NCBI GenBank assembly: GCA_902771735.1
Contig: CACXXO010000003.1
Location: forward strand, 51,137-115,136
Direction: 5' to 3'
From: an uncultured Bacteroidota bacterium
GTDB taxonomy: Bacteria > Bacteroidota > Bacteroidia > Bacteroidales > P3
Length of the DNA: 64,000 nucleotides
The notes under the pieces were generated by a model. That model ran no database searches. It was not told the DNA's origin and worked only from the letters and a program-made list of their open reading frames with translations. Each line of letters opens with the position of its first letter. Position 1 is the first letter of the stretch. Shown in pieces: positions 5,682-57,270 of the stretch. Both the position numbers and the translations under genes were made by a program.

Positions 5682-5791
5682 CTAACCATCATTTGCCTAC
5701 CATCGCCCTACCAACACCCTACCAACTCCTACCACGGTAGGAGTTGGTAGGGCGTTGGTAGGGCGTTCATAGGTGGTTATCACATAGTTAG
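5682..5791. repeat. Large intergenic palindrome, copy A
   Basis: Centre between 5734 and 5735. The inner stem 5704-5734/5735-5765 pairs at all but two of 31 positions, and weaker pairing continues outward to CTAAC/GTTAG ends. Arms are built from CTACCAAC-type units. It lies in the divergent region between the MFS gene and the thioesterase gene. A 12-base GTTAAAATTAAC lies at 5654-5665, just outside the left arm. The right-hand tail (5766-5797) is nearly the same as that of copy B. Confidence 0.9.
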
Positions 5792-5841
5792 CATTTAGGA
5801 TGCACAAGGCAATATTTGGGCGGTTTTTACGTTACATAAAC

Positions 5842-6231
5842 ATGGAATATATCTTTGAAAACAGCGACATGGTTCGCGACTATGAATGTGATATTCAAGG
5901 CATTGTAAACAACGCCAATTATCAGCACTATATGGAGCACTCGCGCCACCTCTATGTGATGGATCGCGGAGTCAGCTTTGCCGCATTACACGAAGAAGGC
6001 ATCGATGTGGTGGTGGCACGTTTCGAGATTTCCTACAAAGTGCCGCTGCGCCCGTGCGACGAGTATGTCTGCCGCCTGATGCCCGAGAAGAAGGGCATCC
6101 GCTACATCTTCCACCAGGCTATCTTTCGCAAGGCCGACAACAAGCTCTGCTGCTCGGCACAAGTGGATTGCGTGGCCACCATGGGCGGACGGCTTGTCAG
6201 TGGACACCCGAAACTTGATGAATTGTTATGA
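5842..6231 (+). CDS. Hotdog-fold acyl-CoA thioesterase, YbgC/4HBT type
   Basis: A 129-residue single-domain protein of the 4-hydroxybenzoyl-CoA thioesterase-like family, which hydrolyses acyl-CoA or acyl-ACP thioesters in the cytoplasm. The segment DYECDIQGIVNNANYQHYME carries the family motif (D...GIVN...Y...E) with the Asp expected to be catalytic. Later VVARFEISYKVPLRPCDEYV is the typical central strand pair. I chose the ATG at 5842 instead of the in-frame ATG at 5800 because homology begins at MEYIFENSDMVRDYE. The stop overlaps the start of the next gene (ATGA), so the two are translationally coupled. Confidence 0.85.
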   Translation: MEYIFENSDMVRDYECDIQGIVNNANYQHYMEHSRHLYVMDRGVSFAALHEEGIDVVVARFEISYKVPLRPCDEYVCRLMPEKKGIRYIFHQAIFRKADNKLCCSAQVDCVATMGGRLVSGHPKLDELL

Positions 6232-6932
6232 AACAGGCACTCTTATTATTCCTGCTGTTGGCAGCGGCAACCGCCCACGGACAGCTTTTCGACCACTTGG
6301 ACTATCGCGAAGGAGTGGCGACCCTACAGATTAATGCCCGGCTGACCAATATTTACATGTACGAAGCACGGGGCGAGATTGACACCATCGTGCACGAATT
6401 TCCTGCCTCAGCGGTGGCATTTGTTTATGAAGGAAAAGAATATCATAATGTTGGATTGAACGACAGTCTGGAATTGGTCGATATCGATTACCGCGACAGC
6501 GTGAAGATGACCATAACAGTATGGCGCGACCGAAAAGACCTAATGGGCAGAAGCCCTTACGCCGAGGTGACAGCCATCGAGCGGCTGCGCGCCGTGGGGG
6601 AGATTGACACCATAGGGCGCGTCATCGGGTATGGCGACACGCTGTATATCACCCATTTGGATGGGCGTTGGGAATGGCGTCCCTATCTGACCAGCGATTC
6701 CAAATTTTGGGGGCTCTCAGAAGATGAGCTCTACCTTGTGCTGCACATGGATGAATCCTTTTGTATACGAATACTAATGAGGAGAAAACCCATCCGTCAT
6801 GTGGACTACTACGATCGAGGCAACCGTATCTGGTACGAGTACCTTATACTGCGGGGAACAGGAGAGCCTAACCCCGACTTTACCGACTGCACAATTTGGC
6901 TCCATGAGAAGCCGCATGGATTTAAGGAATAA
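6228..6932 (+). CDS. Hypothetical secreted protein
   Basis: A 234-residue protein with a short Sec-type signal peptide (KQALLLFLLLAAATAHGQ, cleavage probably after HG or HGQ). The mature region is beta-rich and acidic; I recognise no family. It overlaps the upstream thioesterase gene by four bases (ATGA), so both are made from one transcript, and it is followed at once by a strong terminator. No catalytic motif or cysteine pattern is evident; a role at the cell envelope is a guess from the signal peptide alone. Confidence 0.75.
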   Translation: MKQALLLFLLLAAATAHGQLFDHLDYREGVATLQINARLTNIYMYEARGEIDTIVHEFPASAVAFVYEGKEYHNVGLNDSLELVDIDYRDSVKMTITVWRDRKDLMGRSPYAEVTAIERLRAVGEIDTIGRVIGYGDTLYITHLDGRWEWRPYLTSDSKFWGLSEDELYLVLHMDESFCIRILMRRKPIRHVDYYDRGNRIWYEYLILRGTGEPNPDFTDCTIWLHEKPHGFKE

Positions 6933-6934
6933 AA

Positions 6935-6962
6935 AGAAGGCCCGCCGAATGGCGGGCCTTCT
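6935..6962. terminator. Bidirectional intrinsic terminator
   Basis: A 12-bp perfect GC-rich stem (6935-6946 with 6951-6962) with a GAAT loop, between convergent genes ending at 6932 and 6979. A-rich sequence lies to the left, giving a T-tract on the minus strand. Confidence 0.88.
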
Positions 6963-6978
6963 CATGTAATGAACTTTT

Positions 6979-8256: not shown

Positions 8257-8292
8257 CTACTATTATATAATATTGTATTCATTTATTATAAA

Positions 8293-8320
8293 AGAGGTAC
8301 TGCCCGCGGGCGGTACCTCT
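8293..8320. terminator. Intrinsic terminator downstream of the T9SS propeller gene
   Basis: A 14-bp stem with one wobble pair (8293-8306 with 8307-8320), tightly closed by CCCGCGGG. A-rich sequence lies to its left (minus-strand T-tract) and a long T run to its right. It lies between the end of the gene starting at 11546 and the start of tyrS. Confidence 0.82.
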
Positions 8321-8348
8321 TTTTTTTTTATTGTCCTTGACGCCCTGA

Positions 8349-11300
8349 TTAGCGGACAATCATCTTGGCGGTAGCTGTGTGGCCGCTGATGGTGACGTTA
8401 ATCAGATACATACCCTTGGCCATGCCGGTGCAGTCGATGCTGTAGGTGTGTTCACCTTCAGCAATGTGACCGAGGTTGCGGGTCATCACGAGACGGCCAT
8501 TGAGGTCGTAAACGCGGAGCTCGCCCTTACCGGCGATGGCAGCGTTGAGAACCATGTTGGCCTCATCGTAGACGGGGTTGGGGAACAGCTTGACGCTGTT
8601 GAGACCGATAGTGTGGACCGTGGGGATGTTCACGGGGTTGAAGTCGTTGGAGTCGACAACCTCATTGACAGTGTCGGTCACATACTGCATATCCATAAAG
8701 ACACCGCGACCATAGGTACCGAAATAGATGGCACGCGGCCATTTGGTCTTGGCAAAAACGAAGTGGTTGGGAGCGATACCGGTATGGGTGAGATTGTGGC
8801 GGATGGGCAGTTTGTTGGTCTGCTGCACGATGGCGGTCACAGGGACACCAGTGAGTTTGTTGTAGGACTGCCAGCTGCCGGTGGTAGTACGAGTGTAGAC
8901 ACCCGTCTCACAGCCGACAAAGATGGTACCGGTGGAATCCTCAACAATAGCGGTATAGACGGGCATGCTGGCATCGGCGAGAGGCATCGGGGTGATGGTG
9001 TAGCTGCCGGTGCTGGCGTTGTTGACAACAGCAACGTTGGCCATGGCGTCGGAGAAATCCTCGAAAGTAAGAATCAGACGGTCCTGACCTTCGCGCTGGT
9101 CGACAGCGATGTTACTGATGGGACGGGGGAACCAAATGTCGCCATTGAAGCGCAAAGTGTCGACAGCGAGGACGGGGTTCGGGCGCTTGAAGATAAGGGT
9201 GTCATAGATGGCATAGTCGGGCGACGAGAAGTCGACATTCTCGAAGCCTCTGACGCGGACGAGCATCGACTTGTGGGTGGCAACGTCGTAAGTCGAGATA
9301 TAGACAAAGCGGGCATCGCGGCTGAAAACAGCCTGGCGGGGATAGTGGTTGGCCGAGCTGGTGCCGGGAGTGCGCTGGATGAAATAGATGTCGGAGAAAT
9401 AGTGGTGACCTTCGTGGATCTGTCCGTCGAAATCGTTCTGGTTAAACACCTTGGTGAAGTCGGTAGGATTCCAGGAGAACCAAACACCACGCGAGTTCGA
9501 CTCAACGTCGGACGTACCTGCGGGAGGAAGGTCGGCGATGAAGAGCAGACGCGACTGGATGGGGTTAAGGACGGTAACGGAATCCTTGGCACGCTGGGCG
9601 TTGTCGAAGACATACTCGAAAGGATAGTCGGCATGTCCACGGCTGTGGAAGAGGGCCTTGTCGCCACGACGGATCTGGAAGTTGCCACCACGGTTGGCAC
9701 CATAGGCGGTGTCGTTGACCCAGATGGTATCCCAATTATTGCCGTTCTTGCGGAAGATGTAACCGAGGGTGTCTACAGCCATTCTCAGATAGCTGTTGAA
9801 GTGTGTGTTCTCGGTAGTTTCCCAGAGGGAGATGGAGCCGATGGTGGGGCCGGACTCGCCAAAGATGAACTTGCTGCGGAAGTTAAGGCCGGTGGTCCAG
9901 GTGTTGGTGTTGGTATAGTCGAGGTAGTCGGCATAGGAGCGACCAATCTGGGCATTCTCGGAAGTGACGAAGATGGTGCGGCGCGACTGGGGATAGATCT
10001 GTTGGAATGCCGAGGCTGCAACAGCGCCGCCGTTGCCGGTCCAAAGGACGTTGGCGGTGTGGTTGACGTTGCCGAGGGAGCCGTTGTCATACCAAGAAAT
10101 AACGGGGTTGCCGCCATGGTGGGCAAGGTGAGTCTCGATGATGGGGCAGGCATTGTTGCTGGCACCCATGATGAGAGTACCGTCGGGAGCCACAGCGAGA
10201 CCATTGATCTGGATATTGTTCAGGCCGCGGTTTTCGTTGAAGACAGTGTCGAATCCGTTGCGGCCGTAGAACTTGGAGGAGTAAATACCGCCGTCGGTGG
10301 CGAAGTAGACAGTGTGGTAGCCGGTATAGGCATCGGTGTGGTAGACAGGTACAATCTGCTGAATGCCGGAGTGGACAAAGGAGAGGCTACCATAGACGGT
10401 GGACATGTAGTCGCCATAGTTGAGCTCGAACTCGCTGGCCGAAGCAGTGGTCCACTGGAAGTAGGAACCGTCGACAAAGCCTTCACCAAGGAGGACGTTG
10501 GTGCCACCGACAATAATACGGCGGGGGTTCGTCGGGTCGATGGCGAGGGCACCGCAGTTGGCACCCGAGGTGTAGGTCATCGGCATGACAGTGGAGGTAG
10601 TCAGGCGGGTCCAGGTCTGCTCGTTGTTGGTCATATAGATAGCGTCCATAAGGCCGGTATTCTTAATCACCATAGCATAGAGGAACGTCGTGTCGGTCTG
10701 CGAGACAGCGAGCTTGATGGCGATATTGCTGCCGCCGAAAGCCGGGTTCGAAGAGGAAATGTTGATGGGGTTCAGACTCGAAGAACCGGCGGTGACGTCG
10801 CCAATACGATAGAGCTGGTTGCCGCTGGAGAAGAAGGCGGTCTGATGGGTGCGCGAAATGACCAGATTGTCGACGCGGCCGGCGAAGACGCGGGTAGGCG
10901 TGGCAGTCCAGCTGTCGCTGCCGTCGATGACGACCCAGCGGTAAAGGCCTGCGTTGGTGGCGGCGTAGAGGTAAAGGGTGCCGTTGCCGTGGTAGTACTC
11001 AATCGCGTTGATGGTCTTGAAATTGGTGTCGGTAGCGGAGACGGCCGTGGTGGGTATCAGTTTGAATTCGTTGGTAGCAGGGTTATAGCGATAGATACCC
11101 ATGCCCATGCGCGACATCTTGTTGTAGGTGGTGCCGTAAGCGTAGTTGTCGCTACCGGTACCGATAATGATTTCGTTGGAAGGAGTCTGGGCCATGCAGC
11201 TGATGGGGAGGGAGACCTCCTTGCCGTTCTGGATGAAGGGCACATGGTGCCACGTGTCGTAGAGCTTGGAGAGGGTGTTGGCCCTGGCCTCATCGGTACC

Positions 11301-11546
11301 GAGGTTGTGGTAGAGGTTGTGGAGAATTGTGCTGCTTCCCGATTTGAGGAAGAGACCGCCGGTAGTGGCGCCAGCATAGAGCGTGTTGCGGCTTGTGTCC
11401 TCACGGGCTACGACGATGCTCGAGATTTGACCGCCGACATTGTCAGGTCCAATCTCATAGAATCTGTCGGTTTGGGCGTTGGCAACGCCTCCAGCCAAAG
11501 TCAAAAGGCCTACATACAAGCCGAGAAGTACTTTGTTTCTTTTCAT
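8349..11546 (-). CDS. T9SS type A secreted beta-propeller protein
   Basis: A 1065-residue exported protein. Residues 1-24 form a signal peptide ending VANAQ. The body has repeated segments such as NTLYAGATTGGLFLKSG and GTIFVGCETGVYTRTTTGSW typical of sialidase/Vps10-like beta-propeller blades. The last 80 residues are a type IX secretion sorting domain of type A: VKLFPNPVYDEANMVL, then LRVYDLNGRLV, then GMYLINVTISGH. The protein is therefore expected to cross the outer membrane by T9SS and be attached to the surface or released. No catalytic site is recognised. A TATCTTTG promoter box precedes it at 11600-11607. Confidence 0.88.
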   Translation of the reverse strand: MKRNKVLLGLYVGLLTLAGGVANAQTDRFYEIGPDNVGGQISSIVVAREDTSRNTLYAGATTGGLFLKSGSSTILHNLYHNLGTDEARANTLSKLYDTWHHVPFIQNGKEVSLPISCMAQTPSNEIIIGTGSDNYAYGTTYNKMSRMGMGIYRYNPATNEFKLIPTTAVSATDTNFKTINAIEYYHGNGTLYLYAATNAGLYRWVVIDGSDSWTATPTRVFAGRVDNLVISRTHQTAFFSSGNQLYRIGDVTAGSSSLNPINISSSNPAFGGSNIAIKLAVSQTDTTFLYAMVIKNTGLMDAIYMTNNEQTWTRLTTSTVMPMTYTSGANCGALAIDPTNPRRIIVGGTNVLLGEGFVDGSYFQWTTASASEFELNYGDYMSTVYGSLSFVHSGIQQIVPVYHTDAYTGYHTVYFATDGGIYSSKFYGRNGFDTVFNENRGLNNIQINGLAVAPDGTLIMGASNNACPIIETHLAHHGGNPVISWYDNGSLGNVNHTANVLWTGNGGAVAASAFQQIYPQSRRTIFVTSENAQIGRSYADYLDYTNTNTWTTGLNFRSKFIFGESGPTIGSISLWETTENTHFNSYLRMAVDTLGYIFRKNGNNWDTIWVNDTAYGANRGGNFQIRRGDKALFHSRGHADYPFEYVFDNAQRAKDSVTVLNPIQSRLLFIADLPPAGTSDVESNSRGVWFSWNPTDFTKVFNQNDFDGQIHEGHHYFSDIYFIQRTPGTSSANHYPRQAVFSRDARFVYISTYDVATHKSMLVRVRGFENVDFSSPDYAIYDTLIFKRPNPVLAVDTLRFNGDIWFPRPISNIAVDQREGQDRLILTFEDFSDAMANVAVVNNASTGSYTITPMPLADASMPVYTAIVEDSTGTIFVGCETGVYTRTTTGSWQSYNKLTGVPVTAIVQQTNKLPIRHNLTHTGIAPNHFVFAKTKWPRAIYFGTYGRGVFMDMQYVTDTVNEVVDSNDFNPVNIPTVHTIGLNSVKLFPNPVYDEANMVLNAAIAGKGELRVYDLNGRLVMTRNLGHIAEGEHTYSIDCTGMAKGMYLINVTISGHTATAKMIVR

Positions 11547-11599
11547 AAGATATTAATAATTAATTAGATATTTTATTTTCCTGTTAAACAATTAATGTA

Positions 11600-11607
11600 C
11601 AAAGATA
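11600..11607 (-). promoter_or_regulatory. Bacteroidota-type -7 box for the T9SS propeller gene
   Basis: The minus strand reads TATCTTTG 54 bases before the ATG at 11546, followed by an AT-rich leader. No clear TTTG -33 box is visible at the expected distance. Confidence 0.6.
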
Positions 11608-12125
11608 CACATTTTTTTAATATATATAGATTTTTTATTCATTTTTTTTATCAACAGCCATCCTCCATCCCTCCGCAGTGGCGCATCGCGGAGGGGGGAA
11701 ATAATGCCAGACGATATGTTAAAATGTCGTCGCCCCTTCCCCACCCTACCATCCTCCTACCAACACCTACTGTGGTAGGAGTTGGTTAGGAGTTGGTAGG
11801 GAGTTCATAGGTGGTTATCACGTAGTTAGGGTTTAGGGTGTGGAAAGGCGTTTTTAACCTTTCCTGAAGGTAATTTTAAGTTAATTTTAACATTTCATTT
11901 TTTCCTCGGAAACGGCATTTCCCGACCTCGGGAAAGACACCTTTCGAGGGAGAAAAAAGAAACATGGTTGGGGATGTTGATAAGGTGTGCATAAATTAAT
12001 TTTATAAAAAATATTAAATAGGCAATAAAGATACTTTTTCGGAGTTAATAGAGTCAAAAAAAGTGCGCGACCGAAAGGACGCGACACGGAAAAAAAGACT
12101 GAAAACTATAAAATAATAAGGAAAT
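11608..12125. other. Gene-free divergent region before moxR
   Basis: This 518-base stretch holds palindrome copy B (separate entry) and two smaller hairpins: 11669-11676 with 11688-11695, and 11918-11925 with 11928-11935 (both 8 bp, perfect). The 12-mer GTTAATTTTAAC lies at 11880-11891. A degenerate -7 box TACTTTTT at 12032-12039 could drive the moxR-bat operon. I see no coding sequence. Confidence 0.5.
11736..11830. repeat. Large intergenic palindrome, copy B
   Basis: Centre between 11772 and 11773 with two wobble pairs at the tip. The arms are imperfect (CACCTAC against GTAGGAG) but keep the CTACCAAC unit. The right tail, from GTTCATAGGTGG through TAGTTAG, matches the tail of copy A over about 35 bases with few differences. 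It lies between divergent genes starting at 11546 and 12126. Confidence 0.82.
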
Positions 12126-13127
12126 ATGGAATCTGTGAACATTCAGGAATTGAACGAGAGAATCGGACGCGAAAGCGCCATGGTGGAGATGCTGACAATG
12201 GAAGTCGGCAAGCAGATTGTGGGCCAGAAACACATGGTGGAAGGCCTGATGATAGGTCTGCTGAGCAACGGCCACGTGCTGCTTGAAGGCGTGCCGGGAT
12301 TGGCCAAGACGTTGACCATCACCACGCTTGCCAAGGCCATCGACGCCAAGTTCAGCCGCATCCAGTTCACGCCCGACCTGCTGCCCGCCGACCTGCTTGG
12401 CACCATGATCTACAGCCAGAAGAGCGAGGCTTTCCAAGTGAAGAAGGGCCCCATTTTCAGCAATTTCATCCTTGCCGACGAAATCAACCGCGCTCCCGCC
12501 AAGGTGCAGAGCGCTTTGCTTGAGGCCATGCAGGAGCGCCAGGTGACCATCGGCGAACAGACCTACCGTCTAGAGGAGCCTTTCCTGGTCCTCGCCACCC
12601 AAAACCCCATTGAGCAGGAGGGCACCTATCCCCTGCCCGAAGCCCAGGTGGACCGTTTCATGCTCAAGGTGGTCATCACCTATCCCAAGCGCATGGAGGA
12701 GAAAGAGATACTGCACCAGGTGGTGAACGGGCAACTGATGGGTTCCAACAATCAGCAGCCCATCCTTAAGCCGGCCGACATCATGAAGGCCCGCGAGCTG
12801 GTGCGCGAGGTGTATATGGACGAGAAGATTGAGAACTACATCACCGACATAGTCTTCGCCACCCGTTTCCCGAAAGAGTACGGCCTGGAGAAGATTGCTC
12901 CGATGATCAGCTACGGTGCTTCACCGCGTGGCAGCATCAACCTGGCGGCCGCCGCCAAAGCCTATGCCTTCATGAAACGGCGCGGATATGTCATCCCCGA
13001 GGATGTGCGCGCCATCGCCCTCGACGTGCTGCGCCACCGCATCGGCCTAACCTATGAGGCCGAGGCCGAAAACGTGACCAGCGAGGAGCTGGTGAACGAG
13101 GTGCTGAACAGAGTGGATGTGCCTTGA
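12126..13127 (+). CDS. MoxR family AAA+ ATPase
   Basis: A 333-residue cytoplasmic AAA+ ATPase of the MoxR family, thought to act as a chaperone in assembling or activating VWA-domain partners. The nucleotide site has a Walker A of the MoxR type (GVPGLAKT) and Walker [10 protein letters not shown]; sensor-type sequence [19 protein letters not shown] follows. The C-terminal AAA lid ends with [17 protein letters not shown]. It is the first gene of a co-directional run through DUF58, BatA-E and beyond, the classic Bacteroidota aerotolerance (Bat) arrangement, and the neighbouring VWA proteins are its likely clients. The spacer to the next gene is filled with a repeated AGTTAAG unit. Confidence 0.93.
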
Positions 13128-13163
13128 TTTTAGTTAAGAGTTAAGAGTTAGGAGTTAAGAGTT

Positions 13164-14027
13164 ATGGATGAATCCATAATAAAGAAAGTTCGCAAGATAG
13201 AGATCAAGGCGAGAGGTCTGAGCCAACAGATGTTCAGCGGCGAGTACCACTCGGCCTTCAAGGGGCGCGGCATGGTGTTCAGCGAGGTGCGCGAATACCA
13301 ATACGGCGACGACGTGCGCAACATCGACTGGAACGTCACGGCGCGTCTGGCACACCCTTATGTGAAGGTGTTTGAGGAGGAGCGCGAGTTGACGGTGATG
13401 CTGCTGGTGGACGTGAGCGGCAGCGGACGGTTTGGCACCAACGGGCAATTCAAGGAAGAGTTGGCCGCCGAGGTGGCCGCCACCCTGGCGTTCAGTGCCA
13501 TAGCCAACAACGACAAGGTGGGTATGATCCTCTTCAGCGACCGGATAGAGAAATTCATCCCGCCGAAGAAAGGCCGAACCCATATCCTGCGCATCATCCG
13601 CGAACTCATCACCTTCCGCCCGGAGAGCAACGGCACCGACCTCAGCCAAGCCTTGCGCTACTTCAGCAATGCCATCAAGAAACGCTGCACGACATTCCTG
13701 CTCAGCGATTTCTACGACACGGGATGGACCGACGCACTGAAGCTGGTGGCCGGCAAGCACGACCTGGTGGCACTACGGTTGGTGGACCGCCACGAGGCAG
13801 AGTTGAAAAACCTGGGATTGGTGAAGTTCTACGATCCCGAGAGCACACGCACCGTGTGGATTGACACTGGCAACGCAGAGGTGCGCCGTATGGCCGACGC
13901 CCGTTATGCCGAGCATGAGCGCAAGGTGGACACCACCATGAAGCGCTACGGCATCGACATGGCCACGCTCTGGACGGGCGAGGACTTTGTCAAGCCGCTG
14001 AAAAACTTACTTGCAAGGAGAAGTTAA
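13164..14027 (+). CDS. DUF58 domain protein of the Bat operon
   Basis: A 287-residue protein with the DUF58 signature YGDDVRNIDWNVTARLAHP near residue 50. A VWA-like core follows: the MIDAS-type motif DVSGSG sits in ELTVMLLVDVSGSGRFG and TFLLSDFYDTG lies further on. Unlike BatA and BatB it has no membrane segments. In Bacteroidota this gene always sits between moxR and the bat genes, and the product is thought to act with the MoxR ATPase at the envelope; the exact role is not known. The next gene follows after four bases. Confidence 0.92.
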   Translation: MDESIIKKVRKIEIKARGLSQQMFSGEYHSAFKGRGMVFSEVREYQYGDDVRNIDWNVTARLAHPYVKVFEEERELTVMLLVDVSGSGRFGTNGQFKEELAAEVAATLAFSAIANNDKVGMILFSDRIEKFIPPKKGRTHILRIIRELITFRPESNGTDLSQALRYFSNAIKKRCTTFLLSDFYDTGWTDALKLVAGKHDLVALRLVDRHEAELKNLGLVKFYDPESTRTVWIDTGNAEVRRMADARYAEHERKVDTTMKRYGIDMATLWTGEDFVKPLKNLLARRS

Positions 14028-14031
14028 GACA

Positions 14032-14898
14032 ATGAGAAAGACAATCATTATAGGGCTGATAGGACTAATGGGGCTAATGGGCGAAGCAAGGGGGCAGGCG
14101 GTGGCCAAGCTGAGTGCCGACACCATCCAGCTGGGCGACCAGACGACCCTGAGCATCCAACGCGCCCGTACTTATCCCTCGACGGAGCAATTGAGCCAGA
14201 ACGGCATTGTGGCCCTCGACCAGAAGTTCGACAGCGCACAGCACACCATGTATACCACCTTGACGAGTTTTGAGCCGGGAGTGCACTATGTGAAGCTGAG
14301 CCCCGACGACTCTCTCCAGCTCACAGTGCTGGATGTCGACATTGATACCACGACAGCCGAGATACGCGACATAGCGCCAATAGAGAAAGTGCCCTATACC
14401 TTCTGGGAAATATTCCGCTGGGTGCTGTTGGGACTTGGCATATTGGCACTGTCCTTTGCCGGATGGTGGTTCTGGAAGAAATGGAAAAGCGGCCAGGTGA
14501 GAGAGTGGCTGAGCAGTGAGCCTGTCGACAGCCGCACTCCCGAAGAACGCGCCCTCGACAACCTGGAAGCCTTGAGACAGAAACAACTGTGGCAGGCGGG
14601 ACGCACCAAGGAATACCACACCGAACTGACCGACACGGTGCGTACCTTCATCGAAGAGTCTACGGGCATCCGTGCCACCGACATGACCAGCGACGAGACC
14701 ATCGAAGAAATGGATAATGGAAATTGGAATGTGGAGAGCAACCTGCTGCGAGACATCTTCACCACGGCCGACCTGGTGAAATTCGCCAAGAGCGAGCCAT
14801 TGCCTCACGAGCACGACCGCTCGATGACGGAGGCAGTGGAATTTGTGAAGAGTCTATGGGAACAAGTAAAACCTAAAGAGGAGGTGAAGGATGCATAA
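14032..14898 (+). CDS. Bat-operon membrane protein
   Basis: A 288-residue protein with a signal peptide (IIIGLIGLMGLMGEARGQ), an extracytoplasmic beta-rich domain of about 110 residues, one transmembrane helix around residues 130-150 (IFRWVLLGLGILALSFAGWWFW) and a cytoplasmic tail. The tail contains a segment of the type LRQKQLWQAGRTKEYHTELT with a later conserved acidic end, resembling DUF4381-type proteins of bat operons. I chose the ATG at 14032 rather than the upstream in-frame TTG. Its stop overlaps the batA start by eight bases. The signal peptide is encoded by a short repeated unit also seen at the start of batD. Confidence 0.8.
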   Translation: MRKTIIIGLIGLMGLMGEARGQAVAKLSADTIQLGDQTTLSIQRARTYPSTEQLSQNGIVALDQKFDSAQHTMYTTLTSFEPGVHYVKLSPDDSLQLTVLDVDIDTTTAEIRDIAPIEKVPYTFWEIFRWVLLGLGILALSFAGWWFWKKWKSGQVREWLSSEPVDSRTPEERALDNLEALRQKQLWQAGRTKEYHTELTDTVRTFIEESTGIRATDMTSDETIEEMDNGNWNVESNLLRDIFTTADLVKFAKSEPLPHEHDRSMTEAVEFVKSLWEQVKPKEEVKDA

Positions 14899-15883
14899 CC
14901 TCACGTTTGAACATCCGTGGATGCTGCTTGGGCTGCTGCTGGTGCCGCTGATGGCTGGCTGGTGGCTGTGGCGCTACCGCAAACAGGAGGCCGCCCTGCA
15001 GCATTCGAACATCTCGCTTTTCGAGGGCGTGAAGAAAACTCTTCGTGCCCGCCTGCGCTGGCTGCCCTACGCATTGAGGGTGATGGCCGTGGGAGCCATC
15101 GTGGTAGCGTTGGCACGTCCACAAAGCCAGTTAAGCCGTCAAGAGATGACGGTGGAGGGCATCGACATTGTGATGGCCATGGACCTTTCGGGGTCGATGC
15201 TTGCCGAAGACTTCAAACCCAACCGGTTGGAAGCGGCAAAAAAGGTTGCCGCCGACTTCATCGAAGGGCGCAAAAACGACCGCATGGGGCTGGTGGTGTT
15301 TGCCGGCGAGGCCTTCACGCAGGTGCCCCTGACGATAGACCACCATGTGCTGCTCAAGCAGTTGGGCAATCTCAAGAGCGGCACCATGCGCGACGGCACA
15401 GCCTTGGGCGACGGACTGGCCACAGCCATCAACCGAATCAAGGACAGCGAGGCCAAGAGCAAGGTTATCATCCTGCTGACCGACGGTGTCAACAACCAAG
15501 GCAGCATGGACCCTCTCAGCGCCGCCGAGGTTGCCGCCCTCTACAACATCCGACTCTACACCATCGGTGTGGGTTCGCTGGGCAAAGCCCCCTACCCCAT
15601 GCGGGACCAGTTCGGAAGAGTGCATTACCAGAATATCGACGTGGAGATTGACGAGCCCCTGATGCGCCAAATGGCCGCCGCCACCAACGACGGCCGCTAC
15701 TTCCGCGCCACCAACAAGAAAGCCCTCAAGGAAATCTTCGACCAAATCGACGAGATGGAGAAAAGCAAGATCGACGTGACACAGTATGCCCAGACCAAAG
15801 ACGAATATGCCGTTTGGCTGTGGATAGCTGTGCTGGCTTTAATCGCCGAAGTACTGATAAGGTGGGGATGGTTCAAGTGGTGA
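14891..15883 (+). CDS. batA: BatA, VWA-domain membrane protein
   Basis: A 330-residue protein with two N-terminal transmembrane segments (residues 9-28 and about 58-77), a central von Willebrand factor A domain and a C-terminal membrane helix (AVWLWIAVLALIAEVLIRWG). The VWA domain starts IDIVMAMDLSGSMLAED and has an intact MIDAS (DLSGS, later DGTALGDG and LLTDGVNN). It overlaps the upstream gene by eight bases and precedes batB. Bat proteins are linked to oxygen tolerance in Bacteroides, although the mechanism is not established. Confidence 0.92.
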   Translation: MHNLTFEHPWMLLGLLLVPLMAGWWLWRYRKQEAALQHSNISLFEGVKKTLRARLRWLPYALRVMAVGAIVVALARPQSQLSRQEMTVEGIDIVMAMDLSGSMLAEDFKPNRLEAAKKVAADFIEGRKNDRMGLVVFAGEAFTQVPLTIDHHVLLKQLGNLKSGTMRDGTALGDGLATAINRIKDSEAKSKVIILLTDGVNNQGSMDPLSAAEVAALYNIRLYTIGVGSLGKAPYPMRDQFGRVHYQNIDVEIDEPLMRQMAAATNDGRYFRATNKKALKEIFDQIDEMEKSKIDVTQYAQTKDEYAVWLWIAVLALIAEVLIRWGWFKW

Positions 15884-15903
15884 GTTAAAAGTTAAAAGTT
15901 AAG

Positions 15904-16962
15904 ATGGTACATTTTGAACATATAGAATATCTCTGGCTGCTGGCGGTTGTAGCGTTGGCAGGGATTTTGTGGGGAGCGATGAGCTGGCGCGAAAGGAAGA
16001 GAATAGAGCGATGGGGCGATCGGACAATGTTCGGACGCCTGATTCCCGACCGTTCAGGGTGGCGCCCACCATTCAAGATGGCGCTGACACTCACAGGTAT
16101 TAGCCTGTTGATAGTGGCGCTGGCCAACCCCCAGTTTGGTACCCGTATCGAGAAAGGCAAACGTTCGGGCAGCGACATAGCCATCTGCCTCGACGTGTCG
16201 AACAGTATGATGGCCGAGGACATACAGCCCAACCGACTGGAGCGAAGCAAAAAGGTGGTTACCAACTTGCTCTCCACTCTGACAGGTGACCGCGTGAGTC
16301 TGGTAATTTACGCCGGCACAAGTTTCATCCAAATGCCGCTCACCAACGACTACAGCGCCACGAAACTCTTCCTTGACCAGGTGAGTTGCGACATGATAGC
16401 CTCGCAGGGCACCGCCATCGGCGACGCCATAGAGAAAGGCATGGAGACTTTCGGTTATGGCGACCCCGACCGCCAGTGGGAGGTCAACAAAGGGCGCGCC
16501 ATCATTGTTATCAGCGACGGCGAGAACCATGAAGATGATGCCGTGGGCGCCGCCAAAGAGGCCGCAAAAGAAGGCATCCGCGTCTGCACCATCGGAATGG
16601 GTCTTCCCGAAGGGGCCCCCATTCCCGAATATAGTCCTCGTGGACGCACTAACAACTACAAACGCGACAAAAACGGCAGCATCATCATGACCCAACTCAA
16701 CGAAGAGATGCTACGCGAGATAGCCCATGCCGGCAACGGCACCTACGTGCGCGCCAGCAACGCCGGTAGCGGGTTGAACGACATCACGTCGGTCATCAAA
16801 GGATTGGACAAAGAGGAAATGGGCGAGGCTGTGTTCAGCGCCTACGAAAGCCGCTACATGTACCCACTGGTAGCAGGTCTGCTGTGCCTGTTAGCCGAAG
16901 TACTCATCTATGAGCGCAGAAACAGAAAATGGAAACTTTTTAATGAGGAGGGAGAAAAATGA
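15904..16962 (+). CDS. batB: BatB, VWA-domain membrane protein
   Basis: A 352-residue paralogue of BatA with the same plan: two N-terminal membrane helices, VWA domain, C-terminal helix (YPLVAGLLCLLAEVLIY). The MIDAS reads DIAICLDVSNSMMAEDIQPN, then GTAIGDAIEKG and IVISDGENHEDD, so metal coordination residues are kept. The stop overlaps the batC start (ATGA), coupling the two. The 20-base spacer before it is composed of AGTTAAAAGTT repeats, as elsewhere in this window. Confidence 0.92.
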   Translation: MVHFEHIEYLWLLAVVALAGILWGAMSWRERKRIERWGDRTMFGRLIPDRSGWRPPFKMALTLTGISLLIVALANPQFGTRIEKGKRSGSDIAICLDVSNSMMAEDIQPNRLERSKKVVTNLLSTLTGDRVSLVIYAGTSFIQMPLTNDYSATKLFLDQVSCDMIASQGTAIGDAIEKGMETFGYGDPDRQWEVNKGRAIIVISDGENHEDDAVGAAKEAAKEGIRVCTIGMGLPEGAPIPEYSPRGRTNNYKRDKNGSIIMTQLNEEMLREIAHAGNGTYVRASNAGSGLNDITSVIKGLDKEEMGEAVFSAYESRYMYPLVAGLLCLLAEVLIYERRNRKWKLFNEEGEK

Positions 16963-17774
16963 AGAAACTACTGTTCATACTTATAATTTTCAATTTTCAA
17001 TTTTCAAATTTCCATACGCTACAGGCTCAGGCCGACCGGCAGCAACTGCGCGATGGCAACCGAAGCTACAAGAAAGAAAAATACGACAAAGCCGAGGTGC
17101 AGTACCGTCGCGCATTGGAGCACGACAGCATGGACTATCGTGGGCAGTTCAATTTGGGCAACGCCCTTTATAGGCAGAAAAAATATGACGAGGCGGCACG
17201 TCACTACGACCAAGCACTGCAGAGTGCCGACATCAGTGACAACCAGCGTTCTCGAGCCCTTCACAACAAAGGGAACAGCTATCTCAAAGCTGGCATGGAA
17301 AATCAGGAGCAGGGCATGCAACTGTTCCAGCAAGCCGTGCAGAACTATCAGGATGCCCTGAAACTCGACCCCAAGAACGAAGACACTCGATACAATTTGG
17401 CTTACGCCCGTCGGCTCCTTCAGCAGGCACAACAGCAACAGCAGCAAAACCAGCAAGGACAACAAAATCAGCAGCAGAACCAACAGAATCAGCAAAACCA
17501 ACAAAATCAAGACCAACAGAACCAGCAGCAACAACAGAACCAGCAGAATCAGCAAAACAATAACCAACAAGGTCAACAGGGTCAAAACCAACAAGGAGAC
17601 GAACAGGACCCTAAAGACAATAAAGGACTGAAACGGCCCAACAAGATGGAGCAACGCAAACAAGATGCTGAACGCATGTTGGAGGCTGTGAAAAACAACG
17701 AACGCCAATCTCTAAAAGACCAAGCCAAGAAGGTGCAGGCTGCCGGTGCCCACCACAGTGACAAAGACTGGTAA
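16959..17774 (+). CDS. batC: BatC, TPR protein with Gln/Asn-rich tail
   Basis: A 271-residue secreted or periplasmic protein. The signal peptide (about residues 1-23) is encoded by a repeated AATTTTC unit that gives FNFQFSNF. Two to three TPR repeats follow (residues 25-145; YKKEKYDKAEVQYRRALEHD, FNLGNALYRQKKYDEAARHY). From about residue 150 to 215 there is a low-complexity run made almost only of Gln and Asn with scattered Gly and Asp, encoded by mixed CAA/CAG/AAC codons. The charged C-terminus (about 220-271) follows. TPRs suggest it bridges BatA/BatB and BatD/BatE. Confidence 0.88.
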   Translation: MKKLLFILIIFNFQFSNFHTLQAQADRQQLRDGNRSYKKEKYDKAEVQYRRALEHDSMDYRGQFNLGNALYRQKKYDEAARHYDQALQSADISDNQRSRALHNKGNSYLKAGMENQEQGMQLFQQAVQNYQDALKLDPKNEDTRYNLAYARRLLQQAQQQQQQNQQGQQNQQQNQQNQQNQQNQDQQNQQQQQNQQNQQNNNQQGQQGQNQQGDEQDPKDNKGLKRPNKMEQRKQDAERMLEAVKNNERQSLKDQAKKVQAAGAHHSDKDW

Positions 17775-17792
17775 AAAAACAAAAAGGACATT

Positions 17793-19616
17793 ATGCGAAA
17801 GATATTCATCATAGGGTTTATAGGTTTAATGGGCATACTGGGTCTCCGAGCTCAGGAGATGACCGTGCAAGCCCCCAAGCAAGTCTATCTTGGTGACAAT
17901 TTCAAGGTAAACTTTGTCATCAACGACAACGCCCGCGATTTTCAAGGGCCCACTTTCAAAGGGTTCTCCCTCCGCTCGGGACCCAACCGTGGCACCCAAC
18001 AGTCTGTCACGATGTACAACGGACAAATAACCAACTCGATACAGACCACATATTCTTACACTCTCACAGCCGATGTGGAAGGCACCTTCACCATCGGGTC
18101 CGCCACATGCACCGTCGACGGAAAGAAGCTCTCCACCAACAGTTTTACCATCAAGGTAGAGAAGATGAGCATGGCCCAACAACAGCAGCGCCAGCAACAA
18201 CAGCAGGCCCAGCAACAGCGCCGCCAGGCCTACGATCCCTGGGCCCAGCAACCTCAGCCTGCCTCGAAAATCGACGCCAACACCCTCTTTGCGCGTGCTT
18301 CTGTGAGCAACACCCACCCTTATCAGGGCGAACAAATCATCATTACATACAAAGTTTACACCCAAGTCCCCCTCAGCCAAGTGGGTATGGAAAAACTGCC
18401 CGGAAACAAAGGATTCTGGGCCGAAGACCTCAGTGCCAACAAGCAAATTAAGCAATACGAAGAGACCGTCAACGGGCAACACTATCAAGTGGCCGAAATA
18501 CGCCGCGGTGCACTTTTCGCACAGGAAAGCGGAAAACTATCCATCGACCCCCTCGACCTTAACGTGCTGGCCATGGTCCAACGCCAGCGTCGCCGCACCG
18601 GCACCCTGCTCGACCTTTTCGACGACCCCTTCTTCAATATGGCCCAAGCCGTCGAATATCCCCTACACACCAAACCCGTACAGGTCAACGTAAAACCCCT
18701 TCCCTCCGGTCCCGACGACTTTAGCGGTGCCGTGGGCAACTTCACTGTCAAGGGAGGCCTGAATCTCAACAAAGTGAAAGCCAATGAGGCCGTTTCCTAC
18801 CGACTCACTGTCAGCGGCCATGGCAACTTGATGCTTATCACTCCTCCTTCGCCGCAATTTCCATCTTCCTTCGAGGTCTACGACCCCCAAATTGAGGATA
18901 ACATCAACAAAGGAGACAACGGTGTCTCAGGAAACCGTTCCTATGAATGGGTACTCATCCCTCGCAGCCAAGGGAAATTCACCATCCCCGCCTATCGCTT
19001 CATCTACTTCGACCCATCCACCGCACAATATGTCACCCTCACTATCCCCGAACAGACCATCGACGTGGCAAAAGGCAAAGCCTCGACTTCGAGTATCAAG
19101 GATGACGTCACCCTCCTCAATCGCGACATCAACTACATCCATCCCATCGACGACCTCGACACCGCCACCGACGAAGAACACGCAGGTCTTCCTTTCTTCC
19201 TTTCCATCGCCGTCATCGGTCTGCTCACCGTTGCAGCCATCTTCCAGACAAAGAAACACCAAGCCGATACCCTCGACGTGACCGGCATGCGTAAGAAACG
19301 CGCCACCCGTATTGCCCGCCGCCGTCTGAAAAAAGCCGCCGCGCTCCTCGGTTCTGACGATACCAACGCCTTCTACGAGGAGATCTACAAAGCCATCTGG
19401 GGCTGTCTCTCCGACAAATACTCCATTCCTCTCTCTCAGCTCAATCGTGACAGTGTCAGCGCCTGCCTCGTCGAAAAACAGGTGCCCAACGAGCAGCAGG
19501 AGAGCATCATGAAGGTGCTTCAGGACGTCGACATCGCCCGCTTTGCCCCCGGCGACGCCCACGCCCAGAAACAAACCATCTACGACGAATCCCTGATTAT
19601 GATTGCCGAACTATAA
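17793..19616 (+). CDS. batD: BatD, oxygen tolerance membrane protein
   Basis: A 607-residue protein with a signal peptide (IFIIGFIGLMGILGLRAQ), a long extracytoplasmic beta-sandwich region in which the BatD pattern VQAPKQVYLGDNFKVNFVIN opens the first domain, a Gln-rich linker around residues 128-150, and one membrane helix near residue 470 (GLPFFLSIAVIGLLTVAAIF). A basic cytoplasmic tail ends the protein. Length and layout fit the BatD family. It lies 18 bases after batC and 12 before batE. Confidence 0.92.
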   Translation: MRKIFIIGFIGLMGILGLRAQEMTVQAPKQVYLGDNFKVNFVINDNARDFQGPTFKGFSLRSGPNRGTQQSVTMYNGQITNSIQTTYSYTLTADVEGTFTIGSATCTVDGKKLSTNSFTIKVEKMSMAQQQQRQQQQQAQQQRRQAYDPWAQQPQPASKIDANTLFARASVSNTHPYQGEQIIITYKVYTQVPLSQVGMEKLPGNKGFWAEDLSANKQIKQYEETVNGQHYQVAEIRRGALFAQESGKLSIDPLDLNVLAMVQRQRRRTGTLLDLFDDPFFNMAQAVEYPLHTKPVQVNVKPLPSGPDDFSGAVGNFTVKGGLNLNKVKANEAVSYRLTVSGHGNLMLITPPSPQFPSSFEVYDPQIEDNINKGDNGVSGNRSYEWVLIPRSQGKFTIPAYRFIYFDPSTAQYVTLTIPEQTIDVAKGKASTSSIKDDVTLLNRDINYIHPIDDLDTATDEEHAGLPFFLSIAVIGLLTVAAIFQTKKHQADTLDVTGMRKKRATRIARRRLKKAAALLGSDDTNAFYEEIYKAIWGCLSDKYSIPLSQLNRDSVSACLVEKQVPNEQQESIMKVLQDVDIARFAPGDAHAQKQTIYDESLIMIAEL

Positions 19617-24161: not shown

Positions 24162-24246
24162 TGCCTAAACAAATTTAACTTAAATTACCCTAAATACACA
24201 AAAAACACCAAACATCTATCAACTAAGCACATACACCCTATCAACT

Positions 24247-24304
24247 CCCAGTCAACTCCCTACCAACTCCTACCGCGGTAGGAGTTGGTAGGGAGTTGAC
24301 TGGG
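24247..24304. repeat. Large intergenic palindrome, copy C (perfect)
   Basis: A perfect 58-base palindrome: every one of 29 arm positions (24247-24275) pairs with 24276-24304, including the tip CCGCGG. The outer arm reads CCCAGTCAACTCC, unlike the CCCTACCAACTCC of copy D, yet both arms carry the matching change. It sits between the terminator of the upstream gene and the promoter of the caspase-like gene. Confidence 0.93.
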
Positions 24305-24359
24305 CTTTGGTGGGGAGAAGGAGCGAGGGTGGTGGCAAGGTGGCAGGGAAGATTTTTTT

Positions 24360-33553: not shown

Positions 33554-33579
33554 CCCTCCCCTAATACCCCATAAGCACC

Positions 33580-33675
33580 TCCCCCCTACCAGGCCCCTAC
33601 CAACTCCCTACCAACTCCTACTGTGGTAGGAGTTGGTAGGGAGTTGGTAGGGAGTTAATAGGTAGTTTACAGGCT
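33580..33675. repeat. Large intergenic palindrome, copy D
   Basis: Centre between 33624 and 33625. Stem 33596-33624/33625-33653: 27 Watson-Crick pairs and two wobbles at the tip (CTG/TGG). The arm holds two CCCTACCAACT units in tandem. It lies between the terminator above and the start of the UvrA-like gene at 33771. Confidence 0.9.
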
Positions 33676-33770
33676 GTTGGCTCCAAGCGTATCGTTACCC
33701 CTTTTTTGGAGTCATTACACAATAAAAGGGAGTTCTTTCCGTTTCAGTTTCCAAACAAGATTATTGCCCT

Positions 33771-36134: not shown

Positions 36135-36140
36135 GGGCAA

Positions 36141-36180
36141 AAAAAAGCGGCGAGAATCGCATGATTCTCGCCGCTTTTTT
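36141..36180. terminator. Bidirectional intrinsic terminator
   Basis: An 18-bp perfect stem (36141-36158 with 36163-36180) with GCAT loop, A-tract on the left and T-tract on the right. It lies between the convergent UvrA-like gene and secA. Confidence 0.93.
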
Positions 36181-36192
36181 TTACCAATGGAA

Positions 36193-39507
<3,315 letters not shown>

Positions 39508-39591: not shown

Positions 39592-39654
39592 CAACTTTTT
39601 TTTCAATGGCGGCGGAAAAATAAAAAAACGGTAGCAAAATGGTAGCTATTTTCC

Positions 39655-39745
39655 ACCTACGAACACCCTACCAACTCCCTACCAACTCCTACCGTGGTAG
39701 GACTTGGTTAGGAGTTGATAGGGCGATGGTAGGGCGTTAGTACCT
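39655..39745. repeat. Large intergenic palindrome, copy E
   Basis: Centre between 39694 and 39695 with a G-T wobble at the tip. Arms pair well for about 15 positions with one mismatch (39686/39703), then a single-base bulge and further partial pairing. GTTAATTTTAAC follows at 39771-39782. It lies between divergent secA and the tRNA-Ser promoter. Confidence 0.85.
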
Positions 39746-39793
39746 TGTTGACAGCACTTTATGCGGAAGTGTTAATTTTAACAAATTTTTCAT

Positions 39794-47102: not shown

Positions 47103-47112
47103 TTCCTTTGGG

Positions 47113-52150: not shown

Positions 52151-52158
52151 CAAATATA
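52151..52158 (-). promoter_or_regulatory. -7 box of the T9SS type B gene
   Basis: The minus strand reads TATATTTG (CAAATATA at 52151-52158), 26 bases before the ATG at 52124. Confidence 0.6.
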
Positions 52159-53234: not shown

Positions 53235-53312
53235 CCTCCCGCCTGCGGCGTAATCCATAAATCCAAATAAATTTATAGATTTCCGCGAAGCGGGAGAATT
53301 TAGAAATCAATA

Positions 53313-54191: not shown

Positions 54192-54210
54192 CCCAGGCGA
54201 GTGCAACCCC

Positions 54211-54262
54211 AAATCGCCGCCGCACGGAATCGCATTTTCCGCACGGCGGCGATTTTTTTTTG
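54211..54262 (+). terminator. Intrinsic terminator after era
   Basis: A long GC-rich stem (54211-54222 with 54244-54255, 12 bp, and inner CGGAA/TTCCG) followed by TTTTTTT. Near the convergent sdaA gene. Confidence 0.9.
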
Positions 54263-54322
54263 CCATGTCGGGGAAGTTCGTATTTTTGTAGTCGATTAAT
54301 AAAAGGAATAATAACGAATCAA

Positions 54323-55531: not shown

Positions 55532-55568
55532 TTTCTTTTTTTAGTAGTTATGTAGTCAAGCCAAATGT

Positions 55569-57092
55569 TCAATCTCCTAAAAGTATTATCTCCGACACGC
55601 AGAGGTCATTGTATTTCTTGCCGGGCTTGACGGCGGTGATGCGTATAGTAATCTCCTTGACCTTTTGGCGAAAGTCGGAATGCCACGGGTTTATATAATC
55701 AACGACAGGGAGCTTGATGGCGGCATCAGTGAGGCCCTGCCATGTAAAGTCTTTCGGCACACTGCCTTGCAACTCCTGCTGCCAGTTGGCGTCGGGGTAG
55801 AATATCTTTCTCTCGTCAACATACGGTTTACCGCTCAACTCACCACGTGTGCCGACGATGTAGTCGAGCGTGTCGATGCGGCTGTTGTTGAGCCATGTCT
55901 GGCGATCCTTGCAGTAGCCGTTGTACACCAGAGCGCCGTAGAGCATCACCGAGTCGAGGAACCTTATTGTGACATAAAGCGAGCCATCCCCGTCTGGCCG
56001 CAGCACGGCGGCGGTAGCGAGGTCCATGTCGCAGAGGTTTCCGGTGGGATATTTGGAATCTACGCCACTGAGCGTCACCGTGTAGCGGTCAGGGCTGATG
56101 CGCTGGCTGAGCAGCGTAGGCAGCTCCTCGTGGACCGACAATTCATTGGTGTAAGTGACCTCTAACGGCTCGGCTGCGGCAAGGTCGAAGTCGCGGGCCG
56201 TGTAGCGATAGCACTGGTTGCCCAGCGTCATGGGCAGCCCCTCGACCTTGACATCATAATCCTGCCAGGGATTGGCCCCCAGTTCGACGCTGAAGCGCTG
56301 CACGCGGCCGTCGCCCCAATAGGCGGCAGGTGAGAAATCGTAACGGAAAACACCCTGATTGTATGCAGAAGCGCGGAAGATACGCTGTCCCGTTCCAAGG
56401 CTCTGATAGCACGGATTTTCGATACGGTAGCGCACCTTGAGTTCCACCACCTTGCCGGCAGGGATGTCAAGCCGCACATAGTACCAGCGCCGATTGAGCG
56501 CCTGATTGTACCACAGCAGCTCATCGCCATACTTGTCGATAATCTGCCTCTCGCGGGCCGCCGTGTAGAAGTCGCCGGTGCTGTCGGGCGTGAGTAGCGG
56601 GTCGCTCTCCGGTAGGGTGCTGTCTCGGTCCCACATCACCTCTTTGATGATTTCATACTCATATACCGCCACCTGTCGACGAAGCGTCGTATCCCGGGAA
56701 CATTGCCACGGAAGCGACTGGCCGTCAAGCGCGAACATCACGTCGCGCACATAGCTGTCGCGCCAGCCATACTCTATGATGCCCTCCGAGTAGAAGTCGC
56801 GGTCCTCCCAATGCGCCGCACCGCTGCCCTGCCAGTCGACGGGGAAACCGTAGGGCAACTGGCGGAAGTCCTTGGCAGACTGGTTGTGAAGCAGGTAGCG
56901 CACCTCCACCTCGGTATATCCATCGCGCAGGGTGAAATGACATTGCTCGTCGAGCAACTTCACCTCCGGCACAAGTACCGCCACCGGTGTGCGCGCCAAC
57001 GTCAGCGCCGACCGCTCGGCCACAGGGTCGCCGTTGGCCCGCAGGACTGCACCAAACGACAGCAACACAAAGAGTATCAACGACTTTCTCAT
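55569..57092 (-). CDS. Secreted DUF4424-like protein
   Basis: A 507-residue exported protein (signal peptide FVLLSFGAVLRANG). The mature N-terminus NGDPVAERSALTLARTPVAV and strand-rich body (VEVRYLLHNQSAKDFRQLPYG) resemble DUF4424-type beta-sandwich proteins. Its C-terminal 170 residues hold beta segments but no enzymatic motif. The divergent gene at 57416 encodes a protein with a similar N-terminal domain. Promoter box at 57116-57123 on the minus strand. Function unknown. Confidence 0.72.
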   Translation of the reverse strand: MRKSLILFVLLSFGAVLRANGDPVAERSALTLARTPVAVLVPEVKLLDEQCHFTLRDGYTEVEVRYLLHNQSAKDFRQLPYGFPVDWQGSGAAHWEDRDFYSEGIIEYGWRDSYVRDVMFALDGQSLPWQCSRDTTLRRQVAVYEYEIIKEVMWDRDSTLPESDPLLTPDSTGDFYTAARERQIIDKYGDELLWYNQALNRRWYYVRLDIPAGKVVELKVRYRIENPCYQSLGTGQRIFRASAYNQGVFRYDFSPAAYWGDGRVQRFSVELGANPWQDYDVKVEGLPMTLGNQCYRYTARDFDLAAAEPLEVTYTNELSVHEELPTLLSQRISPDRYTVTLSGVDSKYPTGNLCDMDLATAAVLRPDGDGSLYVTIRFLDSVMLYGALVYNGYCKDRQTWLNNSRIDTLDYIVGTRGELSGKPYVDERKIFYPDANWQQELQGSVPKDFTWQGLTDAAIKLPVVDYINPWHSDFRQKVKEITIRITAVKPGKKYNDLCVSEIILLGD

Positions 57093-57115
57093 ATCTTGGA
57101 GCTATTATCAATTTG

Positions 57116-57123
57116 CAAATATA
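57116..57123 (-). promoter_or_regulatory. -7 box of the DUF4424-like gene
   Basis: The minus strand reads TATATTTG 23 bases before the ATG at 57092. Confidence 0.6.
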
Positions 57124-57180
57124 CAAAATAAAAAAACAACCCAAAAAAGCAGTTTGCAACAGGCTGATAATTAACACCAT

Positions 57181-57270
57181 CTCCCTACCAAGTCTTTCCC
57201 ATCTCCTTACCATCTCCTACCCATCTCCTACCACGGTAGGAGATGGTAGGGCGTTGGAAAGGTGATGACA
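57181..57270. repeat. Large intergenic palindrome, copy F (variant)
   Basis: Centre between 57233 and 57234. Twelve pairs from 57232/57235 to 57221/57246 follow one tip mismatch. At the tenth position from the centre the pair is T-A (57224/57243) where copies A to E have A-T, so both arms changed together. The left side repeats CATCTCC three times. GTTAATTTAAAC follows at 57291-57302. It lies in the divergent region between the DUF4424-like and YARHG/WG genes. Confidence 0.85.

Follow-up and report, generated by a model that had tools for sequence, protein, structure and literature searches.

Background

Repetitive extragenic palindromes (REPs) are short palindromes with a conserved tetranucleotide foot, and the iterons of parC sites are 11 bp long. 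ParR forms a superhelix on tandem parC iterons, wrapping the DNA (PMC5016525), and the motif recognized by DNA gyrase extends over 130 bp and is symmetric, with wings whose GC content has a periodicity of 10.75 bp (PMC6379681). Within the Bacteroidales, Prevotella intermedia carries PINSR, a lineage-specific intergenic repeat of 188 bp present in 177-184 copies per genome (PMC4755523), numbers from which we computed a density of one copy per ~15-18 kb. Here we report on six intergenic palindromes found in 64,000 nucleotides of contig CACXXO010000003.1 (positions 51,137 to 115,136; hereafter, the window) from an uncultured Bacteroidota bacterium, which turn out to be members of a genome-wide, evenly spaced set of inverted 11-bp arrays. 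The work bears on the open question of what divides a bacterial chromosome into ~10-kb domains, and whether fixed DNA sites are responsible.

Results

Inverted arrays of 11-bp units

Each element consists of two inverted tandem arrays of 11-bp units that flank a dyad, the unit reading CCCTACCAACT toward the dyad and AGTTGGTAGGG away from it. The tandem structure extends beyond the palindrome, with conserved positions recurring to about offset 55-62 in each arm. The preliminary description of the window, which spoke of palindromes with compensatory arm changes, undersold the elements in that it missed the 11-bp tandem arms. In copies aligned on the dyad the units are best at the core and fade outward, and the copies have no shared ends.

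The source genome (G000) is a 2.29-Mb assembly, 95.9% complete, of which 833 kb were scanned for arrays. Its SecA sequence places it beside Bacteroidales metagenome-assembled genomes (MAGs) of the rumen and the horse gut, and the SecA matches at 90-78% identity include records of Candidatus Colimorpha pelethequi and C. onthohippi; judged from this protein, it is a Candidatus Colimorpha-like gut or rumen Bacteroidales.

A covariance model, R1, was built from 26 aligned copies and gave at least 150 strand-hits in the source genome; among 120 genomes of the genus it matched 46. Searched with up to three mismatches, the core 32-mer was found at 88 sites in G000, 59 in G021, 9 in G002, 7 in G007 and 2 each in G013 and G014, and at none in the other 19 congeners or in 16 genomes of other families; the reversed 32-mer pattern had no site in any of the 41 genomes. 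As R1 finds copies with the same unit sequence (henceforth, word) and is blind to other words, we adopted a word-free detector that combines palindromy with lag autocorrelation and uses no sequence prior. It made 63 calls at lag 11, compared with 3, 0, 8 and 0 at lags 9, 10, 12 and 13; five calls fell below the threshold score of 1.7 and were dropped, leaving 58 arrays. Five approximate dinucleotide shuffles served as control and yielded none. A chance origin, which the preliminary description had kept, beside local duplication, as the alternative should other genomes show no copies, no covariation and no insertion polymorphism, is excluded by the shuffles and by the 88 against 0 sites of the 32-mer, and both copies in related genomes and covariation were found.

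Over all stretches examined (16 genomes), 108 of the 137 best calls had an 11-bp unit. The remainder were mostly low-complexity repeats of 7-9 bp; G071, G100 and G120 also contributed some inverted arrays with an 8-bp unit. The purine-rich strand was directed outward in 110 of 114 arrays.

Placement and spacing in the source genome

All 58 arrays are intergenic. Their flanking genes are tandem in 28 cases, divergent in 21 and convergent in nine, a make-up close to that of background intergenic regions of at least 150 bp (97, 54 and 21). With contig ends excluded, the 53 spacings between the arrays have a mean of 12.7 kb and a coefficient of variation (CV) of 0.47, which is below the value of every one of 2000 random choices of intergenic regions, whether weighted by length or not.

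When lag-11 runs were sought irrespective of orientation, in a second scan, 58 were returned, again all intergenic, and none at lag 10. Eight of these lie outside the called arrays; they are weaker, all intergenic, and some have other units (CCTTCTATGAT, CTCTCTTACTC). Gaps of 19.6-29.7 kb in the grid contain four of the eight, and one-sided runs also occur at lag 11. Taken together, the 66 features have a mean spacing of 11.5 kb and a CV of 0.41, compared with a minimum of 0.588 among 5000 random intergenic choices. A single spacing is below 4 kb where 14.4 are expected, and the largest internal gap is 28.5 kb, random maxima having a mean of 48.1 kb and a minimum of 27.9 kb. On contigs C1, C7 and C8 regional subtypes of the word can be seen, GTCGGA-rich at 49-153 kb of C1 and AGATGG-rich in parts of C7.

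Coupling along and across the arms

The preliminary description rested on arm changes that occur in matched pairs. Its interpretation is supported in part, being right about a dispersed intergenic element that is no terminator and has paired changes in its arms. Across the 26 aligned copies such covariation exceeds that of shuffled data (score 0.072 versus 0.041, a level reached in 1 of 500 shuffles), but in the 58 arrays it is limited to the core: it is found at offsets 1-11 (2/500 shuffles) and 12-22 (19/500), is absent at offsets 23-33, and is reversed, falling below expectation, at 34-44. Between neighbouring 11-bp units within one arm the coupling is stronger, and this holds for all distances tested (z 4.3-6.3, 0/500 each); units are more like their same-arm neighbours than their mirror partners. 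Since tandem coupling exceeds mirror coupling, the stem of a hairpin or cruciform does not appear to be what chiefly constrains the arrays, and the case for RNA hairpin compensation as the main force is weakened.

Same geometry, other words

Upstream of secA, 11-bp arrays were recognized by eye at 14 of 30 congeneric loci, with differing words; this reading leaves out loci L156, L166, L168 and L172, whereas L159 and L174 are readable. The CTACCAAC type occurs at this place in G000, G021, G096, G069 and G095, the word CATATAGTATA in G070, TTGTTCTACGG-like words in G108, G114 and G018, and further words in G097, G008, G011, G084 and G109. Elsewhere, G114 has 15 arrays in 240 kb, mostly TTGTTCACCGG, and 130 kb of G070 hold six AT-rich arrays with one CTACCAAC array between them. 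Across congeners, the 11-bp period is constant and the word is not.

Spacings pooled from the other species (n=40) have a mean of 13.6 kb and a CV of 0.50, none being below 3 kb. In two genomes, unrelated unit families interleave: 13 arrays of two families in 120 kb of G068, with a merged CV of 0.30 (three sub-threshold arrays, scoring 1.69, 1.62 and 1.68, were retained here for their clear units), and eight arrays of two families in 80 kb of G112, with a merged CV of 0.23. Circular shifts of one family gave spacing as even in 0.4% (G068) and 0.9% (G112) of cases; the corresponding figures for the minimum-distance version of the test are 6.7% and 0.6%. In seven genomes, array-rich and array-poor alike, the nucleoid protein HU (PF00216) has 2-4 matches, so that its copy number does not separate the two kinds, and neither does the C-terminal domain of GyrA.

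Sixteen lag-11 runs were found in 308 kb from the genus of the source genome or near it (L067-L082), and three in 1.12 Mb from 64 loci of other genera. Two of these three are in L102, a MAG of another genus (SecA 65%), where positions 9560-18382 hold the two runs and one sub-threshold inverted array; this is a possible second lineage with such a grid. Arrays with an 8-bp unit were seen at L255 (G071), L253/L273 (G100), L256/L275 (G120) and L250/L270 (G113). They are inverted in G071, G120 and G113, some lie ~12-19 kb apart, and they are possibly a sister class with another period. Several low-complexity inverted arrays of 7 and 9 bp lie within the first 5 kb of L236 (G002:C3:40001-45000).

The six arrays of the window and their shared sites

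All six palindromes of the preliminary description are present and intergenic, as it stated, and five of its centres stand; the dyad of copy D lies one base away, at 33623|33624. No strand is assigned to any of them. Array A (5679..5789, dyad 5734|5735) lies upstream of an MFS transporter gene (-) and a thioesterase gene (+), and array B (11717..11827, dyad 11772|11773) between genes for a 1065-aa protein sorted by the type IX secretion system (-) and a MoxR-type AAA protein (+). Array C (24220..24330, dyad 24275|24276) is upstream of a caspase-like gene (+), and array D (33568..33678) is flanked by co-directional genes (+), upstream of an ABC-ATPase gene. Array E (39639..39749, dyad 39694|39695) lies 190 bp upstream of secA (-) and ~150 bp from a tRNA-Ser gene (+), and array F (57168..57288, dyad 57233|57234) between genes for a NADase_transloc-domain protein (-) and a YARHG-domain protein (+). 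The flanks are accordingly divergent at A, B, E and F and co-directional at C and D; our home-made gene caller, which does not see the tRNA, labels array E as tandem. Over 28-bp arms the mirror matches number 26, 20, 28, 26, 23 and 21 for A to F.

Array C is indeed a perfect 58-mer, with 29-bp perfect arms, and differs from copy D at offsets 24-26 on both arms, as had been described. Copy F likewise has A at offset 10 on both arms, but this does not set it apart, as A is found there in 16 of the 58 left and 18 of the 58 right arms genome-wide. A search of Rfam with the window, at the gathering score, returned only two tRNAs, and no family matched the arrays. A strong hairpin at 36136-36185, preceded by an A-run and followed by a T-run, lies between the ends of secA (-) and the ABC-ATPase gene (+) and looks like a bidirectional terminator. 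At 40936-42573 a 545-aa open reading frame matches DNA polymerase III alpha over its NTPase and finger domains alone and looks partial.

In the syntenic region all four arrays of the G096 contig and both of the G021 contig lie at sites occupied in the source genome. The site of array A is also occupied in G096 and G002, that of B in G096 and that of C in G096 and G021; the sites of D and F are without an array in both G096 and G021. The arrays that G096 and G021 have at the site of C do not show copy C's matched triple change, which has the look of arm copying, or of selection acting on the core, rather than of a rule of the family. The position of array E upstream of secA is kept (-190 in G000, -190 in G021 and -179 in G096). 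The site of array D is probably that of a G002 array at C3:115777, and G002 has three sites in common with the source genome (at G000 C3 37,239, 56,870 and 84,759). The ABC-ATPase gene beside array D (33771-36134) is missing at the matching place in G021 and G096, and its G002 match lies elsewhere on the contig.

Nine pairs of arrays at shared sites have a mean identity of 0.790, compared with 0.728 for other pairs. Four of the six G096/G021 pairs hold similarity ranks 2-4 of 58 and the others ranks 28 and 36. The three G002 pairs rank 15-23 of 58, so that here a site is shared without high-ranking similarity, which indicates that position outlasts sequence. The array-less site upstream of secA in G002 (L069) and other empty sites are too diverged to show insertion junctions.

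Discussion

We propose that the elements would form a genome-wide grid of protein-assembly sites that organize the chromosome. Each site has its inverted arrays, of ~3-5 units whose 11 bp make one helical turn, on either side of a dyad. The symmetric core would be the point of nucleation for a protein, dimeric or multimeric, that wraps DNA or forms filaments; a topoisomerase, a nucleoid protein or a centromere-type ParR-like protein are candidate kinds. From there it would spread outward on a single helix face, and the weakness of the outer units would reflect the smaller contribution of binding at these positions. With a site every ~12 kb, each would serve to anchor or insulate a single topological domain, and the unit sequence could drift, or be swapped for another family, if period, symmetry and spacing were kept. 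Several features point this way. Spacing that is even, short of both close pairs and long gaps, and blind to unit sequence argues for coverage as the function; that every large family has a one-turn period argues for assembly on one helix face; and the dyad argues for a symmetric complex. The outward run of the purine-rich strand in 110 of 114 arrays also counts in its favour, as do the published cases of wrapped, helically phased DNA, the gyrase motif (PMC6379681) and ParR on parC iterons (PMC5016525). What is directly observed is the architecture, the intergenic position of the arrays, how evenly they are spaced, the change of units from species to species, the interleaving of families and the sharing of sites; from this we infer that a protein binds the arrays and acts on chromosome structure and that the spacing is under selection. 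As a whole, the reading of the arrays as assembly sites for a putative DNA-wrapping or filament-forming chromosome protein is a tentative one, to which we assign a little less than an even chance.

Several results weigh against it. No such protein has been found. Measured from the dyad, the A/T phase of the 19 unit types is random (Rayleigh R 0.04, p 0.97), in a test in which unit families were grouped by eye, most types rest on 1-3 arrays, and approximate dyads were taken as the cleavage site. The first 49.7 kb of contig C1 are without an array at threshold (one dropped call, 1.63, at 38,800) even though they contain 11 intergenic regions of at least 150 bp; this stretch opens with AAA_15/AAA_21 genes typical of defence loci and also has metabolic genes, so that it cannot be dismissed as an island. 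Nearby arrays in the source genome are more alike than random pairs (0.739 versus 0.713, p 0.001), which implies regional subtypes of the word and is not predicted by a single trans-acting factor. G106, whose SecA is 95% identical, is without most of the source genome's sites and retains a single array, different in sequence, at the position that corresponds to copy B. Among 20 further species (727 kb, 12-40 kb each) the 13 arrays at threshold are confined to seven, and the grid of G002 is sparser, at 18-38 kb. 

Of the alternatives, an unlikely one is that the arrays are non-autonomous mobile elements, akin to REPs or miniature inverted-repeat transposable elements (MITEs), as the preliminary description had suggested, with even spacing produced by target immunity or by recombinational loss of close pairs. 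Target immunity is known for Mu-like elements. Many similar copies per genome, genome-specific units, a patchy distribution among species and the likeness of neighbouring arrays are all in keeping with mobility. However, the elements have no fixed ends, their units fading outward; long gaps are also rarer than chance; and unrelated families keep apart from one another, an effect that immunity based on sequence would not bring about. A MITE origin predicts neither the even spacing nor the interleaving. The TnpA-REP-like transposase that had been envisaged finds no support either, as Y1_Tnp (PF01797), the transposase family searched for, had no match in the source genome or in three array-rich congeners (G114, G067 and G047), but was present in six of the ten genomes searched.

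Somewhat less likely again, the arrays might buffer supercoiling in a sequence-neutral way, as palindromes from which negative supercoiling extrudes cruciforms and which template switching between the arms perfects. Perfect or near-perfect cores, mirror covariation of the core, the freedom of unit sequence and the matched triple change of copy C, which its G096 and G021 counterparts do not share, are what such a process would leave. It does not explain the strict 11-bp period, and the divergence of the arms past ~22 bp, the stronger tandem than mirror coupling and the one-sided runs speak against it.

We regard it as improbable that these are strong DNA gyrase sites, symmetric, of ~130 bp, with helically phased wings and one per domain. 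In size, symmetry and 11-bp phasing they resemble the E. coli gyrase motif, and BIME-2, a bacterial interspersed mosaic element (BIME), is a known intergenic precedent (PMC6379681). The dyad and period 11 of the source-genome arrays agree with the two-fold symmetric periodic wings of ~130 bp expected of a strong gyrase site, and the genome has a GyrA-type C-terminal domain with six blade hits. Yet the same domain (5-6 blade hits) is found in all seven genomes, array-rich or array-poor as sampled, and the A/T phase varies among unit types, an argument against a single gyrase-type enzyme with indirect readout. A fixed A/T phase relative to the cleavage site was not found in any consistent form among the 19 unit types.

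More improbable still are DNA-uptake or recombination signals spread by molecular drive, such as dialects of DNA uptake sequences (DUS) or uptake signal sequences, or outward Chi-like arrays. Genome-specific dialects, of which DUS can have more than one per genome (PMC3630211), would fit, and the outward purine-rich polarity would serve ends arriving from either side. Against this, DUS are short single words, occurring by the thousand and also within genes (PMC3630211), while the arrays have 11-bp units and are all intergenic, and the uptake protein ComEC (PF03772) was not found in array-rich G000 (95.9% complete) and G068 (97%) nor in G061. Matches to the ComEC family were seen in four congeners and none in G000, G068 and G061, each at least 94% complete.

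Finally, RNA hairpins acting as terminators or mRNA-end stabilizers are hardly credible: the inner stem could fold, its symmetry would work in both directions and its core covaries, but 21 of the 58 arrays lie between divergent genes in an orientation mix near that of all intergenic regions, no T-run follows the six window copies, no Rfam family matches and tandem coupling exceeds mirror coupling. The statement in the preliminary description that these are not ordinary terminators is borne out by the divergent arrays and the missing T-runs. A promoter or terminator role was rejected from gene orientation around the 58 arrays.

Returning to assembly sites for a chromosome protein, a wider claim would be that an uncultured Bacteroidales genus organizes its chromosome by distributed, evenly spaced 11-bp iteron arrays, in effect a many-site centromere or domain-anchor system whose geometry, namely the dyad, the one-turn period and the ~12-kb spacing, is kept while the word turns over from genome to genome and several words share one grid. 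This we hold to be possible but doubtful. No description of such a grid was found in the literature searched, which covers few subscription journals. If true, a grid that is evenly spaced, strict in geometry and independent of sequence would offer a rare footprint, at the level of sequence, of a domain organizer, and the fast turnover of words between species would amount to a natural experiment in the co-evolution of a protein and its sites.

Compared with described systems, the arrays share with PINSR its occurrence in Bacteroidales, intergenic location, and similar copy number and placement (PMC4755523); PINSR differs in having a defined 188-bp consensus, used for PCR, and neither an 11-bp inverted array nor even spacing is described in the available part of that source, the two having been compared by description only. 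REPs and BIMEs are likewise dispersed intergenic palindromes, possibly linked to gyrase (PMC6379681, for BIME-2) and to chromosome organization, but no Y1 transposase accompanies the arrays in the source genome, and 11-bp units, free sequence and even spacing set them apart; their arms are not palindromes with a tetranucleotide foot but tandem 11-bp units that differ between species. The DUS dialects of the Neisseriaceae resemble the arrays in that a genome-wide word changes in concert between relatives and two dialects may coexist, and differ in being single 10-12-mers, thousands per genome, also within genes, with recognition of the ComP type (PMC3630211). In shape, gyrase is the best known match: its motif and the strong gyrase site of Mu are ~130 bp long and two-fold symmetric with 10.75-bp periodic wings (PMC6379681), although the motif is a degenerate signal of composition rather than a set of tandem repeats, and the arrays fail the phase test. 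In logic, the best known match is ParR on parC iterons, which are also tandem and differ in sequence between systems (PMC5016525); a plasmid has one such site, with direct repeats beside the par operon, whereas here many inverted sites are distributed along a chromosome.

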